Assembly: GCA_021734045.1 (NCBI GenBank)
Contig: JAIPJR010000107.1
Location: forward strand, 1-6,606
Direction of reading: 5' to 3'
Source: Fidelibacterota bacterium
GTDB taxonomy: Bacteria; Fidelibacterota; UBA8477
DNA: 6,606 nt
Of this stretch, positions 326-6,219 are shown piece by piece. Below the pieces are notes generated by a model. The model was not told the origin of the DNA. It searched no databases and saw only the letters and a list, made by a program, of their open reading frames with translations. Every line of letters begins with the position of its first letter. Position 1 is the first letter of the stretch. Both the position numbers and the translations under genes were made by a program.

Positions 326-1525
326 CTAGAACGCGCTGCTAATCCCGAATAACAGGTGATTGGCGCTCTTTTCCATGTCCCGCAAATATTCCACAATCGC
401 ACGCATATTACGATAGATCTGGTAACAACCGGTAACGGAAATTGCATGATAAGCCGGATCGGATGCAGTGGGATAGAGATCGGTCACATCGGAATTCACC
501 AGATTATATAACAAAATCGCGTTCCACTTACTCTGATCACCATTCGGCGAATAGATAGCCTCCACAAATCCGCCGTTGGTTTTCACCTTGTCTGCTGCCG
601 GTGCAGCCCGGTACAACGGGTTGTCGTCGGTACGGAAGAGCCATTGAGCATTCACTTCAAACCTCCCCAGCAGCGCCGTAGCATCTGCGCCGAACATGAG
701 GGCTGTGTTCACCTCGGACCACCATTCTGTGGGGGCGTAATATCCAAACCCGCCGACACGCATGTTTCCCAACCCGTGGCTGGCTCTCAGCAGGTAGGTT
801 TTATAGTTATCATCATCAAATTGTCGTAATCCACTGGCAGGTCCGATGCCATTGCCATTGGCGATGGTAAAGACAAAATCAGTTCCGAATGGTGCGCCAT
901 AGTCGAAACTCAACCCCCGGTCATAGGTCAAATCCGTAGGCGCCCAGCCAATCGTGGTGCGATAAACCTGGTAATCAGAATAGCTCAGGCGCAATTCCCG
1001 TTTGAACATGGGGTCGGATAGTTGGAACTGGCCAATGGCCACATTCACACCCTTTCCAAACAGATCATTGACATAGATGAAGGCATCCTCCAGGCCCGCA
1101 ACAGATCCGCGTTCGCTCATGAAAAAGTAGAAATAGTAGCTCACATTTTTACCCACATTGCCTCCGGAAAGCAACTTGATGTTGTAGGGTGTGCGGAAAT
1201 CGGTTTTTGGGTCACCGGAAACTGCATCAGGTGTTAGATCATAGTACAGATCCATGCGCACCGCCACGGGTAATTCCCGCTGGAGCAGGAGTTCAATATC
1301 CCCGGTCTCCAGAAATGCCCGGCTGGGCTCTACACCCGGCATGACAAAACCATTACCGGCAAATTCGTCCCCGAAATCCTTCAATTTCGGGAACATGGTA
1401 TGGCAGGTGTTGCAGCTCATCCGGTACTTACGGGCAAATGCCGGAATAGCCCGGGCGGTTTCCGCGAAAAAAGTGAACAGCACCAGTGCCATTAATCCAA
1501 TTTTTAAGCTTTGGTATCCTCGCAT
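326..1525 (-). CDS. Cyc2-like outer-membrane monoheme cytochrome-porin fusion
   Basis: This is a predicted outer-membrane protein of 399 residues with a small c-heme domain at its N terminus. Residues 1-26 form a signal peptide (hydrophobic core, cleavage near ARA|IP). One heme-binding motif, CNTCH, follows at 38-42, flanked by FARKY before it and FPKLxxFGxxFxxNGF after it. The remaining 330 or so residues alternate polar and hydrophobic positions with many aromatic residues and end in SSAF, as expected of a beta-barrel with a terminal Phe. A heme segment of about 35 residues joined to a barrel is the architecture of Cyc2, the Fe(II)-oxidising cytochrome-porin, and the length is at the short end for that group. 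ATG 1525 has a GAGGA site about 9 bases upstream. It lies 36 bp downstream of the pentaheme gene and is probably co-transcribed with it. An electron-conducting role is inferred; membership of the true Cyc2 clade is not shown, because related uncharacterised proteins share this motif. Confidence 0.75.
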   Translation of the reverse strand: MRGYQSLKIGLMALVLFTFFAETARAIPAFARKYRMSCNTCHTMFPKLKDFGDEFAGNGFVMPGVEPSRAFLETGDIELLLQRELPVAVRMDLYYDLTPDAVSGDPKTDFRTPYNIKLLSGGNVGKNVSYYFYFFMSERGSVAGLEDAFIYVNDLFGKGVNVAIGQFQLSDPMFKRELRLSYSDYQVYRTTIGWAPTDLTYDRGLSFDYGAPFGTDFVFTIANGNGIGPASGLRQFDDDNYKTYLLRASHGLGNMRVGGFGYYAPTEWWSEVNTALMFGADATALLGRFEVNAQWLFRTDDNPLYRAAPAADKVKTNGGFVEAIYSPNGDQSKWNAILLYNLVNSDVTDLYPTASDPAYHAISVTGCYQIYRNMRAIVEYLRDMEKSANHLLFGISSAF

Positions 1526-1561
1526 GATAATAGGTCCTCTCTTAAATGATTCTGGCGGTCA

Positions 1562-2896
1562 TCAATCAAAAATTTCAATCCAGGTGGCGGCGTCATTGAT
1601 GAATACTGCACGACTTTCCTCCTCCGGTACCCCCAGATATTGGGCGACCGCTACCGGGAGTTTGCGGTAGTACATCTCCGCCTTGACTGTGAGTTTTCCC
1701 GGCGCTACTTCATCGGGGACCTGCCAGGTATAGGTTTCCACTTTGGTTTCTCGCGGACCAAGACGGTAGTCCACACCCAGGTCGGCGGTGTACCACTGCA
1801 TGATGGTCATTTCGCCATCTGGATTCAGGTACGGCATCCTGTAAACACGATCGCCCAGGGGGATCATTTCCCGGCGAACACCTTTGAAATCCGGCTCGTT
1901 CAGCGGAATACCCATATCCTGGTAGGCCAGAACCTCGGAGGCAATAGTGTATTCTTCGCCCTCAAAACCTTTCTTGTCAACCGGTATTGGATAGGTCTTG
2001 CCATCTGCATCCACCGCCTCCACGTGGACCCACACAACCCGCTCCTCGGCGGACCCGGTGGGAAATTTGTGTCCGGTTTTGGCATTGAACAGCTGCAGTG
2101 AAAAAGTTACCCGGTCACCCGGCTCCACTTCCCGGGCGTTTGGCTCCATCCGCATTTCAATCACACTGCGCAACTTCCCATCGTCGTGGGCACCGTGGAA
2201 AAGGTGTTGTGCAACCATGCCCTTTTTGCCCATGAGGGCGCTGACACCTTCCGCTTTGGGCATATGGCAGGTTTGGCAGGTGACATTTTGGGCAGGATAG
2301 GGTCCCTCCAGCCACTCCAGGTGCGTGGACTTAACCCAAATGCCGTAGGGACTTTTCTCGTTGTGACAGCCACCGCAAAATTCAGCCTGGGTAAATAATT
2401 CATTGTACTGGGAGGTGTGGTATGGGGAATTGACATTGGGCTTGGGGCCATATTTCACCCTACCAGGACTGGAATAGAAGTTGAAATTGAACGGGACATC
2501 CCCCTCAAATCCGGTAATGGTATGGCACACATCGCAAAAGACCGATTCATTGGCCCGGCTGTTCTCTTCCGGGCGGGGTGGTGGTGTGTCCCCGGCCCGA
2601 AAGGCCATGGGCGTGTGGCAACCATTACAGCCAGCCTTCACTCCGGCAACCTCCGGTTCCATATCCGCGTGCGGAACGGCCAGTTTGAAATACTCGATTT
2701 CATCCCAATGATGGGTGTAGGCAATGGACATCATGGACTGATCCCATTGATAATAAAAATTGGTATGGCAGGGCCGGCACGTCATGGGACGTTCAAAGTC
2801 ATCATATGACAATGTCCCATAGGAGGCATCACCGGCCTTACCCTGCGCCATTGAAGATGATAGCATGAGTAATGCAAGCAGAACAATTCGATACAT
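1562..2896 (-). CDS. Secreted pentaheme cytochrome c with C-terminal beta domain
   Basis: This is a probable periplasmic electron carrier of 444 residues. A signal peptide with core IVLLALLMLSS ends near residue 16-20. Five c-heme motifs follow at about 40-44 (CRPCH), 90-94 (CNGCH), 121-125 (CDVCH), 174-178 (CGGCH) and 207-211 (CQTCH, followed by MPK). Histidines around 62-63, 76, 192, 231, 234 and 237 could be distal ligands. Residues from about 243 to the end carry no heme motif and look like a beta-sandwich, with GHKFPTG at about 275-281, a motif recurring in multiheme cytochromes related to the cytochrome c554 group. The start chosen is ATG 2896, four bases after a G-run in AAAGGGGG; an in-frame GTG at 2911 would add five residues but has no ribosome site. 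It is the first gene of the operon, ahead of the cytochrome-porin, which suggests it exchanges electrons with that protein. No catalytic heme or enzyme signature was recognised. Confidence 0.82.
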   Translation of the reverse strand: MYRIVLLALLMLSSSMAQGKAGDASYGTLSYDDFERPMTCRPCHTNFYYQWDQSMMSIAYTHHWDEIEYFKLAVPHADMEPEVAGVKAGCNGCHTPMAFRAGDTPPPRPEENSRANESVFCDVCHTITGFEGDVPFNFNFYSSPGRVKYGPKPNVNSPYHTSQYNELFTQAEFCGGCHNEKSPYGIWVKSTHLEWLEGPYPAQNVTCQTCHMPKAEGVSALMGKKGMVAQHLFHGAHDDGKLRSVIEMRMEPNAREVEPGDRVTFSLQLFNAKTGHKFPTGSAEERVVWVHVEAVDADGKTYPIPVDKKGFEGEEYTIASEVLAYQDMGIPLNEPDFKGVRREMIPLGDRVYRMPYLNPDGEMTIMQWYTADLGVDYRLGPRETKVETYTWQVPDEVAPGKLTVKAEMYYRKLPVAVAQYLGVPEEESRAVFINDAATWIEIFD

Positions 2897-3057: not shown

Positions 3058-3090
3058 ACCACCATGAAAAAAGTTGTTAACCAAACCAGC

Positions 3091-3095
3091 AGGAG
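3091..3095 (+). promoter_or_regulatory. AGGAG ribosome binding site that decides the SRPBCC start
   Basis: AGGAG lies 7 bases before ATG 3103 and 4 bases before the adjacent ATG 3100. The farther in-frame ATG 3064 has no SD sequence and falls at the predicted transcription start, so the downstream start is preferred. Confidence 0.6.
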
Positions 3096-3102
3096 AAGCA
3101 TG

Positions 3103-3702
3103 ATGCGCGTACATTTGTTCGTTGCAGCTATCACTATCGCATTCTTGACAGTACCTATGACGGCTCAGGAAAGGGACATCAGCATGTCAAATCCAAAATC
3201 AGGTTCCATCAATACGAACACTGTCAGCAAGGCTCAATTCAACATACCTGTTAATCAGGAAGCACCGGTGATAGCATATTCTTCAATTGAAATTGTGGCG
3301 CCGGTGGAAGCGGTCTGGAAAACTCTCACAGATATTGAGAACTGGCCGGTATGGCAGAGCGCGGTTTCTGAAGCCACGTTACTGGGAGATTTGGCATCGG
3401 ACACCGAGTTTGTCTGGAAGGCCGGGGGCTTGACATTTCATTCCCAACTTCACACCGTAGAACCGTTCCAGGCAGTGGGCTGGACCGGGCGAACCATGGG
3501 CGTTTCCGCGATTCACAACTGGCAATTATCCTATCAAGATGGCGTGACAACAGTCGCTGTGTCTGAAAATTTGTCGGGGTTTCTGCCCTGGTTGATGCGG
3601 AGAAAGTTCCGGAAGGATTTACAGGTGGGAATGTCCAAAAATCTGGCGGAGTTAAAAGCGGCAGCGGAAGCTCCTGTGGTGTCCGGAAACGATTCCAATT
3701 AG
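3103..3702 (+). CDS. SRPBCC (START/Bet v1-like) family protein with export signal
   Basis: From ATG 3103 the protein has 199 residues. Residues 1-21 look like a signal peptide (hydrophobic core FVAAITIAFLTV, cleavage at MTA|Q). A polar linker runs to about 54, then an SRPBCC domain fills 55-190. Its opening is characteristic: a first strand, then APVEAVWKTLTDIENWPVWQ, then a set of strands and a long C-terminal helix. SRPBCC domains form a deep pocket for hydrophobic ligands and are mostly cytosolic, so an exported copy is unusual. ATG 3064 would add 13 residues including SRRSMM, which resembles a Tat twin-arginine motif, but it lacks an SD site. An internal ATG at 3184, preceded by AGGAAAGGGA, could give a signal-less form. 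It is divergent from the cytochrome operon and has the same promoter pattern as the barrel gene at 4826. Ligand and activity are unknown; the fold call is good. Confidence 0.8.
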   Translation: MRVHLFVAAITIAFLTVPMTAQERDISMSNPKSGSINTNTVSKAQFNIPVNQEAPVIAYSSIEIVAPVEAVWKTLTDIENWPVWQSAVSEATLLGDLASDTEFVWKAGGLTFHSQLHTVEPFQAVGWTGRTMGVSAIHNWQLSYQDGVTTVAVSENLSGFLPWLMRRKFRKDLQVGMSKNLAELKAAAEAPVVSGNDSN

Positions 3703-3768: not shown

Positions 3769-4290
3769 TCAGACACTTTTTTCTGCATCCATGAATAATG
3801 CCTGCAACGTGTTGTGAGTGGCGGCGAGCCAAAGTCGTTCCACCTGTGACATCATTAAAAAGAGAACCGGACTACGCCAGACTTCCACCAGCATAATCAG
3901 GCTAAAACCGGGCCGGCTTTCACCAATGGTGAGTAACAAGCCACTGCGCAACCAGCGATTTTTCAGAACCAACTCGATTTCCTCGCCGGGAATCACCTGA
4001 TGGATCTGCACCGAAGTGGTCAATCGCCCCAGGGGCCAACCAAAATAGCGGGTGAGTTGAAACACTGAGTCAATACTAAGAAGGTCGGGTAATATCCACT
4101 CTCCATCCCTTTTTATTTCAAAGAATCCCGCATGCTTCCGGGTTGTCAGGAATCGCCTCCATACAACGGGAGGCTCCAATGGAACCTCCCGTACGGCTGA
4201 CAAGCGTTGTGTTGTGAATTCGAAGCCTGAGCTGCCAGCCAGCAGTGCACAGGTTTTGAATTGGTCTTCCATTGGTTTCAGAAACGCCAT
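3769..4290 (-). CDS. Uncharacterised protein, possibly SRPBCC-like, coupled to barrel gene
   Basis: This is a 173-residue protein without a signal peptide, cysteine motif or clear membrane span. I do not recognise the family with certainty. The layout suggests a divergent SRPBCC fold: a strand then VPLEPPVVWRRFL near 36-47, resembling the APxxVW opening of that superfamily. Several strand-like stretches follow (TSVQIHQVI, EEIELVLKN, GLLLTIGE, SLIMLVEVW), then a long C-terminal helix from about 147. The start ATG 4290 lies inside the end of the upstream barrel gene (13-bp overlap, different frame) with no strong SD site, so translation is probably coupled. ATG 4272 is an in-frame alternative. 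It converges with the exported SRPBCC gene across a 66-bp gap where I see no good terminator. If the fold guess is right, the locus carries two SRPBCC proteins, one exported and one cytosolic. Confidence 0.65.
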   Translation of the reverse strand: MAFLKPMEDQFKTCALLAGSSGFEFTTQRLSAVREVPLEPPVVWRRFLTTRKHAGFFEIKRDGEWILPDLLSIDSVFQLTRYFGWPLGRLTTSVQIHQVIPGEEIELVLKNRWLRSGLLLTIGESRPGFSLIMLVEVWRSPVLFLMMSQVERLWLAATHNTLQALFMDAEKSV

Positions 4291-4826
4291 CCCACATGAA
4301 CCGTTGGGAACGGCTGGATGGCGCTGTTCTCAAACACCTTGTCGTTTATTTCCATATCCTTGGCGTTGAAGACATAGCCCAGCCCTACCCAGGGTGTGAC
4401 ATAGAGATTTCCCAAACCGGTCATCCAACGGTATCCAATGCGTCCGCCCATGGAATATTCCAGTCGCTGGATCGTGTCAGGCGTATCATTATCCTCAATC
4501 ACCTTCCGGCTGACACCGCCATCAATACCCAAGAAGGCACCGTCGGATCCACCTTTGATAAATCGGTCCATTTTCCAGCCGGCCCCTACGAACCTGGCGG
4601 TCAAACCCTCATTGCCATGAACCGCTTCCGGCAGCGTCAGGCCATACACACCCAGATCAAACCGCCAGCCATTTACGCCATAAGCGGTGTGAACCGAAAA
4701 TCCCTCCAACGCATAAGCGATGGGATCGATTTCCACATCCAGTTGCTGCGCGGTAACCGGTGTAAACGGGAACCCGAACACAAAACTCAGGACCAGTGTG
4801 TGTAGCATAACTTTGATTTTTTTCAT
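4278..4826 (-). CDS. Small outer-membrane beta-barrel protein
   Basis: This is a 182-residue protein with a signal peptide at 1-26 (KK start, hydrophobic core LVLSFVFGF, cleavage at VTA|QQ). The mature part of about 156 residues has alternating hydrophobic strands rich in Gly, Tyr and Trp (for example GWRFDLGVYGL, GRIGYRW, LYVTPWVGLGYVF) and ends in HVGWRF with a terminal Phe. This is the pattern of a small outer-membrane barrel of about eight strands. There is no enzyme motif; the exact family was not recognised. ATG 4826 has a strong SD site, GGGAGG, five bases upstream. It is first in a two-gene unit with the overlapping SRPBCC-like gene. Its predicted promoter matches that of the exported SRPBCC gene, suggesting joint control. 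Possible roles are uptake or passage of a hydrophobic molecule, or envelope stability; these are inferences. Confidence 0.75.
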   Translation of the reverse strand: MKKIKVMLHTLVLSFVFGFPFTPVTAQQLDVEIDPIAYALEGFSVHTAYGVNGWRFDLGVYGLTLPEAVHGNEGLTARFVGAGWKMDRFIKGGSDGAFLGIDGGVSRKVIEDNDTPDTIQRLEYSMGGRIGYRWMTGLGNLYVTPWVGLGYVFNAKDMEINDKVFENSAIQPFPTVHVGWRF

Positions 4827-4998: not shown

Positions 4999-6219
4999 TT
5001 ACTGGCGGTTTTCCTGCAGCATGAAATATTGGCGCTTATACTGTGAGGGCGTCATACCGGTGTAGCGTTTAAATGCCTCGTTAAAAGTTGATTTTGATTG
5101 AAATCCACAGTCATAGGCGATAGCCAGGTTGGTGAATGCCTGGTTTTTCGGGTCAACCAGGCGGGCTTTTACCGCTTCCACGCGGTACCGGTTTACAAAT
5201 TCGAAAAAATTTTCGTTCAGCCGTTCATTGATAACCTTGGAGAGCAAATAGGCTGGCAATCCCACCTCGCGGGATAGATTTTCCAGGGTGAGGTCGCCTC
5301 TCAGGTAGGGCTTTTTATCGTCCATCGCAGCTAATAATTGACTCAAATATTGCTGATCCCGGACAGTGGATGGATCCACCGACTGGTTCACCGCAGACTC
5401 TGATTTGATCCAAACACCGGGAGAAAATCCCGTGAGCCAGCCCGCCAATGACAGTTTTTCTGCATCCAATGGATAATGTTCACCATCCGGTGCGGAAATT
5501 TCCGGCTGGCGCAAGCCCCGGTATCCCATTGCATAGATAAAGATGGCCATAATAAATGCGATGGTAATATTTACTTCCAGGGGACTCAGACCGAACCAGT
5601 CCGCCCAGGCAAATCCCAACGCTGCAACAATCCAGGTGATGAATAACATCGTAACCAGCGTCCCTATCCATTGGAGATTGCGTTTCCTCTCCTCGGAAAA
5701 CACTTCCCGGATATCCTGACGATGGCGACGCACCAGGAAATGTGTGGCTACCAGATAAGCCAGGTTCACCACCAATTTCAACAGTGTAATACCCCGCATC
5801 CAGGGCGTGTTAAACAGCGTGCCATTTTCTACCAACTCGATTTTGACTGCACCCGGCTGTAAATAGAATGGCAGCAGAAAGAGCAAATAAAAGCAAAAAG
5901 GCGCCAGGTGAATGAGCATCACGGGATGAAAGCGACCGGTTCGGTGAGCCACAACATAAAGAAATAGGGTGGGTCCCAGTAAAAAAACGAAGGGATCACC
6001 AATACGGATGAGATGGGGAACGCGACTATACCATCCGGTGGCCGCTAAGACCGTTCCCAGGATCGCCAGACTGAAAGAGCCGATAAACAATGCCAGCAGA
6101 CGATTGGCGGCACGATTCCCTGCGCGGCGACCCGCCAGTTCAATCGTCAGGAAGAAGCCCTGCAACCCGGCGAGCAAATTCACAATCCCCAGATAAACAA
6201 ACGGTGCTCTGACCATCAT
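4999..6219 (-). CDS. Membrane-bound AraC-family regulator (7-TM sensor domain plus HTH)
   Basis: This 406-residue protein combines a membrane sensor and a transcription factor. Hydrophobic helices lie near residues 7-28, 41-61, 75-92, 100-120, 141-162, 182-204 and 214-233, about seven in all. A linker at 234-302 leads to an AraC/XylS double helix-turn-helix at about 303-398. The C-terminal HTH has the family signature: IAYDCGFQSKSTFNEAFKRY, then TGMTPSQYKRQ. This architecture is common in Bacteroidota and relatives. The membrane part is thought to sense a signal in or near the membrane while the HTH binds DNA from the inner face; that is family knowledge, and the signal here is unknown. ATG 6219 (or adjacent ATG 6216) follows AAGG. 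It lies upstream of, and on the same strand as, the barrel operon, whose control region begins right after its stop. The CGGAC arrays are its likely targets; it shows no CGGAC array upstream of itself. Confidence 0.88.
   Translation of the reverse strand: MMVRAPFVYLGIVNLLAGLQGFFLTIELAGRRAGNRAANRLLALFIGSFSLAILGTVLAATGWYSRVPHLIRIGDPFVFLLGPTLFLYVVAHRTGRFHPVMLIHLAPFCFYLLFLLPFYLQPGAVKIELVENGTLFNTPWMRGITLLKLVVNLAYLVATHFLVRRHRQDIREVFSEERKRNLQWIGTLVTMLFITWIVAALGFAWADWFGLSPLEVNITIAFIMAIFIYAMGYRGLRQPEISAPDGEHYPLDAEKLSLAGWLTGFSPGVWIKSESAVNQSVDPSTVRDQQYLSQLLAAMDDKKPYLRGDLTLENLSREVGLPAYLLSKVINERLNENFFEFVNRYRVEAVKARLVDPKNQAFTNLAIAYDCGFQSKSTFNEAFKRYTGMTPSQYKRQYFMLQENRQ

Follow-up and report, generated by a model that had tools for sequence, protein, structure and literature searches.

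Can two adjacent genes, one for a pentaheme cytochrome and one for a heme-bearing porin, provide a route for electrons across the bacterial outer membrane, and in which direction would the electrons travel? The question is raised by a locus in a Fidelibacterota genome (GenBank assembly GCA_021734045.1). The window analyzed here, 6,606 nucleotides long, is an entire contig (C94, JAIPJR010000107.1) of a 2.5-Mb genome that is assembled in 119 contigs and is 92% complete.

Organization of the locus

The pentaheme gene (P0002) and the porin gene (P0001) lie on the minus strand and, as the initial annotation had described, 36 bp apart, and we confirmed the count of five hemes in P0002 and the CNTCH, FARKY, and FPKLxxFG motifs of P0001. 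The features of the window are listed in Table 1. The contig carries no cytochrome genes besides the pentaheme gene and the 16-strand porin. A Shine-Dalgarno-like GAGAGGA, read from the sequence, precedes the porin start codon within the spacer. The spacer is compatible with a single operon.

Table 1. Features of the 6,606-nucleotide window
Feature	Position	Strand	Details
P0002, pentaheme c-type cytochrome (PHC family), secreted, gene 1 of the pair	1562..2896	-	444 aa, five CxxCH, Sec-type signal
Heme motif I of P0002, CRPCH	2765..2779	-	
Heme motif II of P0002, CNGCH	2615..2629	-	
Heme motif III of P0002, CDVCH	2522..2536	-	
Heme motif IV of P0002, CGGCH	2363..2377	-	
Heme motif V of P0002, CQTCH	2264..2278	-	
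C-terminal immunoglobulin-like beta domain of P0002, with invariant H276	1565..2173	-	Model, VIA-align, conservation
Intergenic spacer, 36 bp	1526..1561	.	Read from sequence
P0001, Cyc2-like monoheme cytochrome-outer-membrane porin fusion, gene 2 of the pair	326..1525	-	399 aa, one CxxCH
Predicted signal peptide of P0001, residues 1-26, cleavage ahead of IPAF	1448..1525	-	Charged start, hydrophobic stretch, ARA before conserved I/V-P-A-F
Heme-binding CNTCH of P0001, residues 38-42	1400..1414	-	C38, C41, H42 invariant in 86 homologs
16-stranded barrel region of P0001, residues 87-398	332..1267	-	DSSP on AlphaFold model; Foldseek and VIA-align to general porins
SRPBCC-fold protein, possible signal peptide	3064-3702	+	
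173-aa protein without assignment	3769-4290	-	
Small putative outer-membrane barrel	4278-4826	-	
AraC-type regulator, hydrophobic N-terminal half	4999-6219	-	

P0001 carries the Cyc2 signature and a predicted porin barrel

Cyc2 proteins have been delimited by a length of at least 365 amino acids, a CxxCH motif, the motif AxPxFAR[QK][TY] just upstream of it, and PxL 4 residues downstream (PMC8406198). P0001 has 399 residues and a single CxxCH, and its sequence AIPAFARKY-RMS-CNTCH-TMF-PKL agrees with this signature at every position; FARKY stands before the heme motif and FPKLKDFG after it. Across 86 relatives, P28, F30, R32, and P46 are invariant together with the three heme-binding residues C38, C41, and H42. 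No Pfam or NCBIfam model matched P0001, and PHROGs held no model for P0001 or P0002.

The AlphaFold model of P0001, built on an 86-row alignment (pLDDT 83), contains sixteen long strands, which span residues 87 to 398, in keeping with the earlier proposal that the heme segment is fused to an outer-membrane barrel. Foldseek searches with this model led to general porins, and the top solved matches in VIA-align were OprO (Z 25.9, rmsd 2.9, 304 aligned residues) and OprP (Z 25.8). Cyc2 of Mariprofundus ferrooxydans PV-1, likewise a 16-strand barrel, has been modeled on these same two porins (PMC8406198), and the predicted model of P0001 shares with Cyc2 this fused, OprO/OprP-like architecture. 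Many charged residues are conserved in the barrel region, directly after which the protein ends in a Phe. A C-terminal Phe is typical of BAM substrates. Residues 22–42, including the heme motif, were mostly modeled with pLDDT below 50, and the homolog alignment shows no invariant His or Met outside CxxCH in this segment.

We then compared P0001 with Cyc2-motif proteins outside its own clade (see below), which are unnamed motif-bearing genes rather than characterized Cyc2 proteins: HMMs built from them matched P0001 with E-values of 2e-19 to 6e-32, and hhalign gave a probability of 98.9. The same HMMs found no match among 200 shuffled copies of P0001. These matches point to homology between P0001 and other Cyc2-motif proteins, significantly above chance.

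P0002 belongs to the PHC family of pentaheme cytochromes

Three Pfam models matched P0002 (Cytochrome_C7, NapC/NirT, and c554-type), and phmmer related it to the pentaheme cytochrome c552 of T. tepidum (5ze8) with an E-value of 2.9e-10. The model of P0002 (pLDDT 90) aligned to 5ze8 over nearly its full length (VIA-align Z 27.9, rmsd 3.3, 341 residues), and all subsequent matches covered the Ig-like domain only. In an alignment of 75 homologs with a mean column identity of 70%, six His residues beyond those of the CxxCH motifs (H62, H76, H160, H231, H237, and H276) are at least 97% conserved, which together with the five CxxCH motifs would be sufficient for five bis-His hemes.

A 2025 study joined Geobacter ExtKL and proteins of cable bacteria in the PHC family and noted their structural homology to c552 (PMC11976967). 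P0002 shares with c552 and the cable-bacteria proteins the 5ze8 fold, the five hemes, and the C-terminal Ig-like domain; its identity to them is about 25%, and no Cyc2-like partner is reported for them in that study. Against the ExtKL equivalog NF040886, P0002 scored 44.6 bits, well short of the 250-bit cut-off. We conclude that P0002 belongs with T. tepidum c552 and Geobacter ExtKL in the PHC family and lies outside the ExtKL equivalog itself.

The paired porins form a separate clade

A 56-row tree was computed from the pair-associated porins and other, unnamed Cyc2-motif proteins from the window's phylum and from a set of 198 genomes. In this tree, P0001 groups among Cyc2-motif porins and not with soluble cytochromes, and all pair-associated porins fall into one clade with it (SH-aLRT 100, branch 1.29). 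Judged by sequence, the pair clade is divergent, long-branched, and separate from the other Cyc2-motif porins. The porin motifs GQFQxxDPxxKRELR and YDRG are kept across it.

The other Cyc2-motif genes that we inspected never adjoin this pentaheme gene; where they have cytochrome neighbors, these are of the monoheme, diheme, or octaheme kind. Three Cyc2-like genes (L179 3370-5190, L181 5631-7449, and L182 2947-4765) have FARQTG or FARQTN motifs, nearer to those of iron-oxidizer Cyc2, and each adjoins a small monoheme cytochrome c. At L189/L190, the Cyc2-like porins are paired differently: a small cytochrome and then an 8-heme gene follow the Cyc2-motif genes. One cytochrome-rich contig carries two Cyc2-motif genes that are very divergent (L176 6867-8282 and 12330-13817 (-)).

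The pair is a conserved two-gene module

Scanning 84,980 species genomes, we obtained 318 relatives and examined the best 80 of them together with same-phylum genomes. Of the 88 loci with upstream DNA, 86 have the pentaheme gene directly upstream of the porin gene in the same orientation (83 of 85 when the three duplicated contigs L028/L051, L033/L119, and L034/L122 are excluded), mostly with a gap of -35 to about 140 bp. The pair occurs in at least ten phyla among the relatives examined. According to the names in the records, which can err for MAGs, the carriers belong to Ignavibacteriota, Bacteroidota, Calditrichota, Aminicenantota, KSB1, Krumholzibacteriota, Fidelibacterota, Zixiibacteriota, Acidobacteriota, Myxococcota, and Latescibacterota. 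Beyond the pair, no neighbor is broadly conserved. The two-gene order that the initial annotation had wished to see in relatives is thus widely kept. Its possible link to an AraC/SRPBCC locus, which simply reflects the remaining gene content of this contig, is not supported: in the 88 relatives, the pair is never flanked by counterparts of those genes.

To avoid the selection bias of a pair-based search, we ran separate profile searches for the porin and the pentaheme protein in 198 genomes of one phylum. The porin search identified the clade in 14 genomes, and the pentaheme search identified the close family in 13. The pentaheme protein occurred in 13 of the 14 carriers of the clade porin and in 0 of the 184 others (Fisher p 1.8e-19, an indicative value only, because related genomes were treated as independent). 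In all 13 pentaheme carriers, the porin gene is the same-strand neighbor of the pentaheme gene; in G163, the contig ends within the pair. The distance matrices of the two families are also correlated (Mantel r 0.79, 73 pairs).

Three clade porins have no adjacent pentaheme gene: L029 9036-10370, L050 5977-7179, and L204 6440-7666. The genomes of the first and last (G028 and G248, respectively) yielded no close pentaheme homolog anywhere, suggesting that loss or replacement of the partner can occur. Both genes are absent from two close relatives of the same genus (genomes 82 and 89% complete), which makes the pair accessory. ResB-like and CcsA-like genes, recognized by eye rather than by profile, lie upstream of the pair on the same strand in several relatives from the window's phylum. 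ResB and CcsA take part in cytochrome c maturation. Together, these data establish the pair as a real, strongly conserved two-gene module, whose most likely role is electron handling at the outer membrane.

Apparent pentaheme-porin fusions (ORFs of 550–800 amino acids on GC-rich Aminicenantes contigs) proved to be alternative-frame extensions across the upstream gene. Viral contigs encoded no relative; plasmid records gave no Cyc2-like match to a distant homolog and only distant multiheme matches to P0002. One Cyc2-like gene (L143, G170:C24:201100-202275) contains one in-frame TGA, which may reflect an error of sequencing or assembly.

Comparison with known systems

Cyc2 of Acidithiobacillus ferrooxidans and M. 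ferrooxydans PV-1 and Cyt572 of Leptospirillum share with P0001 the N-terminal monoheme segment (AxPxFAR[QK][TY]-CxxCH-PxL) and the 16-strand OprO/OprP-like porin. Unlike these proteins, P0001 lies in a long-branched clade of its own with conserved porin motifs, and unlike Cyc2 with its Cyc1-type cytochromes, the clade has a near-obligate pentaheme partner. The Cyc2 layout proposed in the initial annotation stands on signature and barrel, whereas its Fe(II)-oxidizing role is not transferable to a divergent clade with many carriers in groups better known for fermentation or Fe(III) reduction.

The Geobacter extHIJKL conduit resembles the pair in having an OprP-like porin gene (ExtI) near a PHC-family pentaheme gene (ExtKL). 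In contrast to P0001, ExtI has no heme (PMC5877670); in contrast to P0002, ExtKL is a predicted selenoprotein; and the Ext cluster includes the further genes ExtH, ExtJ, ExtM, and ExtN, unlike the two-gene pair. MtrCAB, MtoAB, and OmbB-OmaB-OmcB likewise combine a porin with multiheme cytochromes as an outer-membrane conduit. The MtrB barrel is larger (28 predicted strands) and filled by a decaheme cytochrome, whereas the 16-strand barrel of P0001 has its own heme. The locus has no MtrB-like barrel, no decaheme MtrA, and no surface multiheme cytochrome of the kind that serves as reductase in MtrCAB-type systems.

We found no description of the conserved pairing in the open-access literature, although subscription papers may contain one. 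In the same literature, "pentaheme cytochrome" and "Cyc2" appear together in the context of ACIII only and not for this pair. Earlier work mentions Cyc2 homologs in Ignavibacteriaceae (PMC6344600), and cyc2 or sulfocyanin in Ca. Aminicenantes has been read as iron oxidation, alongside a Geobacter Cyc2 "cluster 3" (PMC7005843), in both cases with no mention of a partner. The pairing had been flagged at the outset as unfamiliar, and this holds for the combination but not for the pentaheme family. The parts are known, the pairing is apparently undescribed, and its function is one that we infer.

Proposed function and direction of electron flow

Computation directly shows the two proteins with their predicted folds and signature motifs, as well as a gene pair that is conserved as one unit. 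On this basis, we propose a route in which P0002 would be exported to the periplasm, dock to P0001 there, and relay electrons along its heme chain to the single N-terminal heme of P0001. That heme would be placed at the periplasmic mouth of the 16-stranded barrel or inside it, where a small dissolved redox partner, such as chelated iron, a flavin, or a humic quinone, could enter from outside and be turned over. The net flow would more likely run outward, from the cell to an extracellular acceptor, than inward in the Fe(II)-oxidizing direction. Our preferred reading, held with modest confidence, is a dedicated, minimal two-protein outer-membrane electron conduit, probably an exporter rather than an Fe(II) oxidase. 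It draws on the Cyc2 signature, the 16-strand barrel, the 5ze8-like partner, adjacency, co-occurrence, correlated distances, and the ResB/CcsA neighbors. Points that we count against it are the low pLDDT of the heme segment, the Fe(II)-oxidizing Cyc2 proteins, a heme-copper oxidase in the window's genome, the absence of the pair from two congeners, and the porins without a partner.

Three observations favor the outward direction. One, by analogy, is the Geobacter ExtI-ExtKL cluster, which belongs to a conduit contributing to metal oxide reduction (PMC6148476). The heme of Cyc2 PV-1 has a potential of +208 mV (PMC8406198), and T. tepidum c552 is called "low-potential" in a title cited in PMC11976967; if this potential, taken from a homolog of about 25% identity, applied to P0002, flow from the cytochrome to the barrel would be downhill. 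Finally, many carriers of the pair belong to Aminicenantota, Calditrichota, and Ignavibacteriota, groups known chiefly for fermentation or Fe(III) reduction (partly PMC7399161).

A rival reading is a true Fe(II) oxidase, in which the barrel heme would oxidize dissolved Fe(II) and the pentaheme protein would replace Cyc1, carrying electrons inward to a periplasmic or inner-membrane acceptor. P0001 carries the published Cyc2 signature, all three biochemically tested Cyc2 proteins oxidize Fe(II) (PMC8406198), and the heme-copper oxidase makes an inward route to oxygen possible. We nonetheless regard this reading as rather unlikely, given the separate, long-branched clade, the lifestyle of many carriers, and a low-potential pentaheme acceptor, with which Fe(II) oxidation would be uphill unless the potentials were raised. 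An oxyanion or small-molecule reductase in the periplasm, with the barrel as a substrate-selective porin and the pentaheme protein as the enzyme, would recall Geobacter ExtI/ExtKL: cells that lack ExtI, a protein weakly similar to phosphate-selective porins, are impaired in reducing selenite and tellurite (PMC5877670). P0001 is closest to the phosphate and pyrophosphate porins OprP and OprO, and the conserved charges in its barrel region would suit such a role. We consider it improbable, because the heme motif missing from ExtI is invariant in 86 sequences and would be needless in a passive pore, and because the six conserved candidate distal His residues could serve five hemes, with no catalytic heme site identified. 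Least of all do we expect P0002 to polymerize into a conductive filament contacted at the outer membrane by the Cyc2-like porin. A link between T. tepidum c552 and the archaeal cytochrome nanowire AvECN has been drawn, and pentaheme homologs of cable bacteria have been proposed as nanowire subunits (PMC11976967), but the internal conserved His residues suffice for all hemes, so that inter-subunit ligation is not required.

If the pair is an outward conduit, it would be among the smallest outer-membrane electron conduits known. More tentatively, and somewhat against the odds, the pair may represent a widespread, self-contained class in which a Cyc2-type heme-barrel is run in reverse as an extracellular reductase, fed near-obligately by a pentaheme cytochrome; "cyc2" in many anaerobic lineages would then mark electron export rather than iron oxidation. 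Genome surveys, FeGenie for example, count cyc2 homologs as markers of iron oxidation. Should the clade export electrons or use another substrate, predictions of iron oxidation would be mistaken in many lineages, spread over at least ten phyla. The porin motifs and the partner gene offer a simple marker that separates the pair clade from iron-oxidizing Cyc2, and a Melioribacter genome carries the pair, which may open the idea to testing in cultured relatives.

Electron-transfer genes elsewhere in the genome

Host metabolism was sampled by family searches of the window's genome, which revealed the heme-copper oxidase considered above. CxxCH-coding patterns number 479 in this genome compared with 144 in a reversed control, and contig C5 carries genes for 11 to 19 hemes; the genome looks rich in extracellular electron transfer. 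The initial suggestion of a route without an MtrCAB-type complex therefore holds for the locus but not for the cell, which has large multiheme clusters elsewhere. These lie on contigs C5 (L201 4827-9750; L202 2207-10661) and C6 (L203 5199-12001) of this genome (G000). They include tetraheme, Fe-S, and NrfD genes with 13- and 12-heme genes, as well as 19-, 11-, and 18-heme genes, two of them with MtrC/MtrF-like domains.
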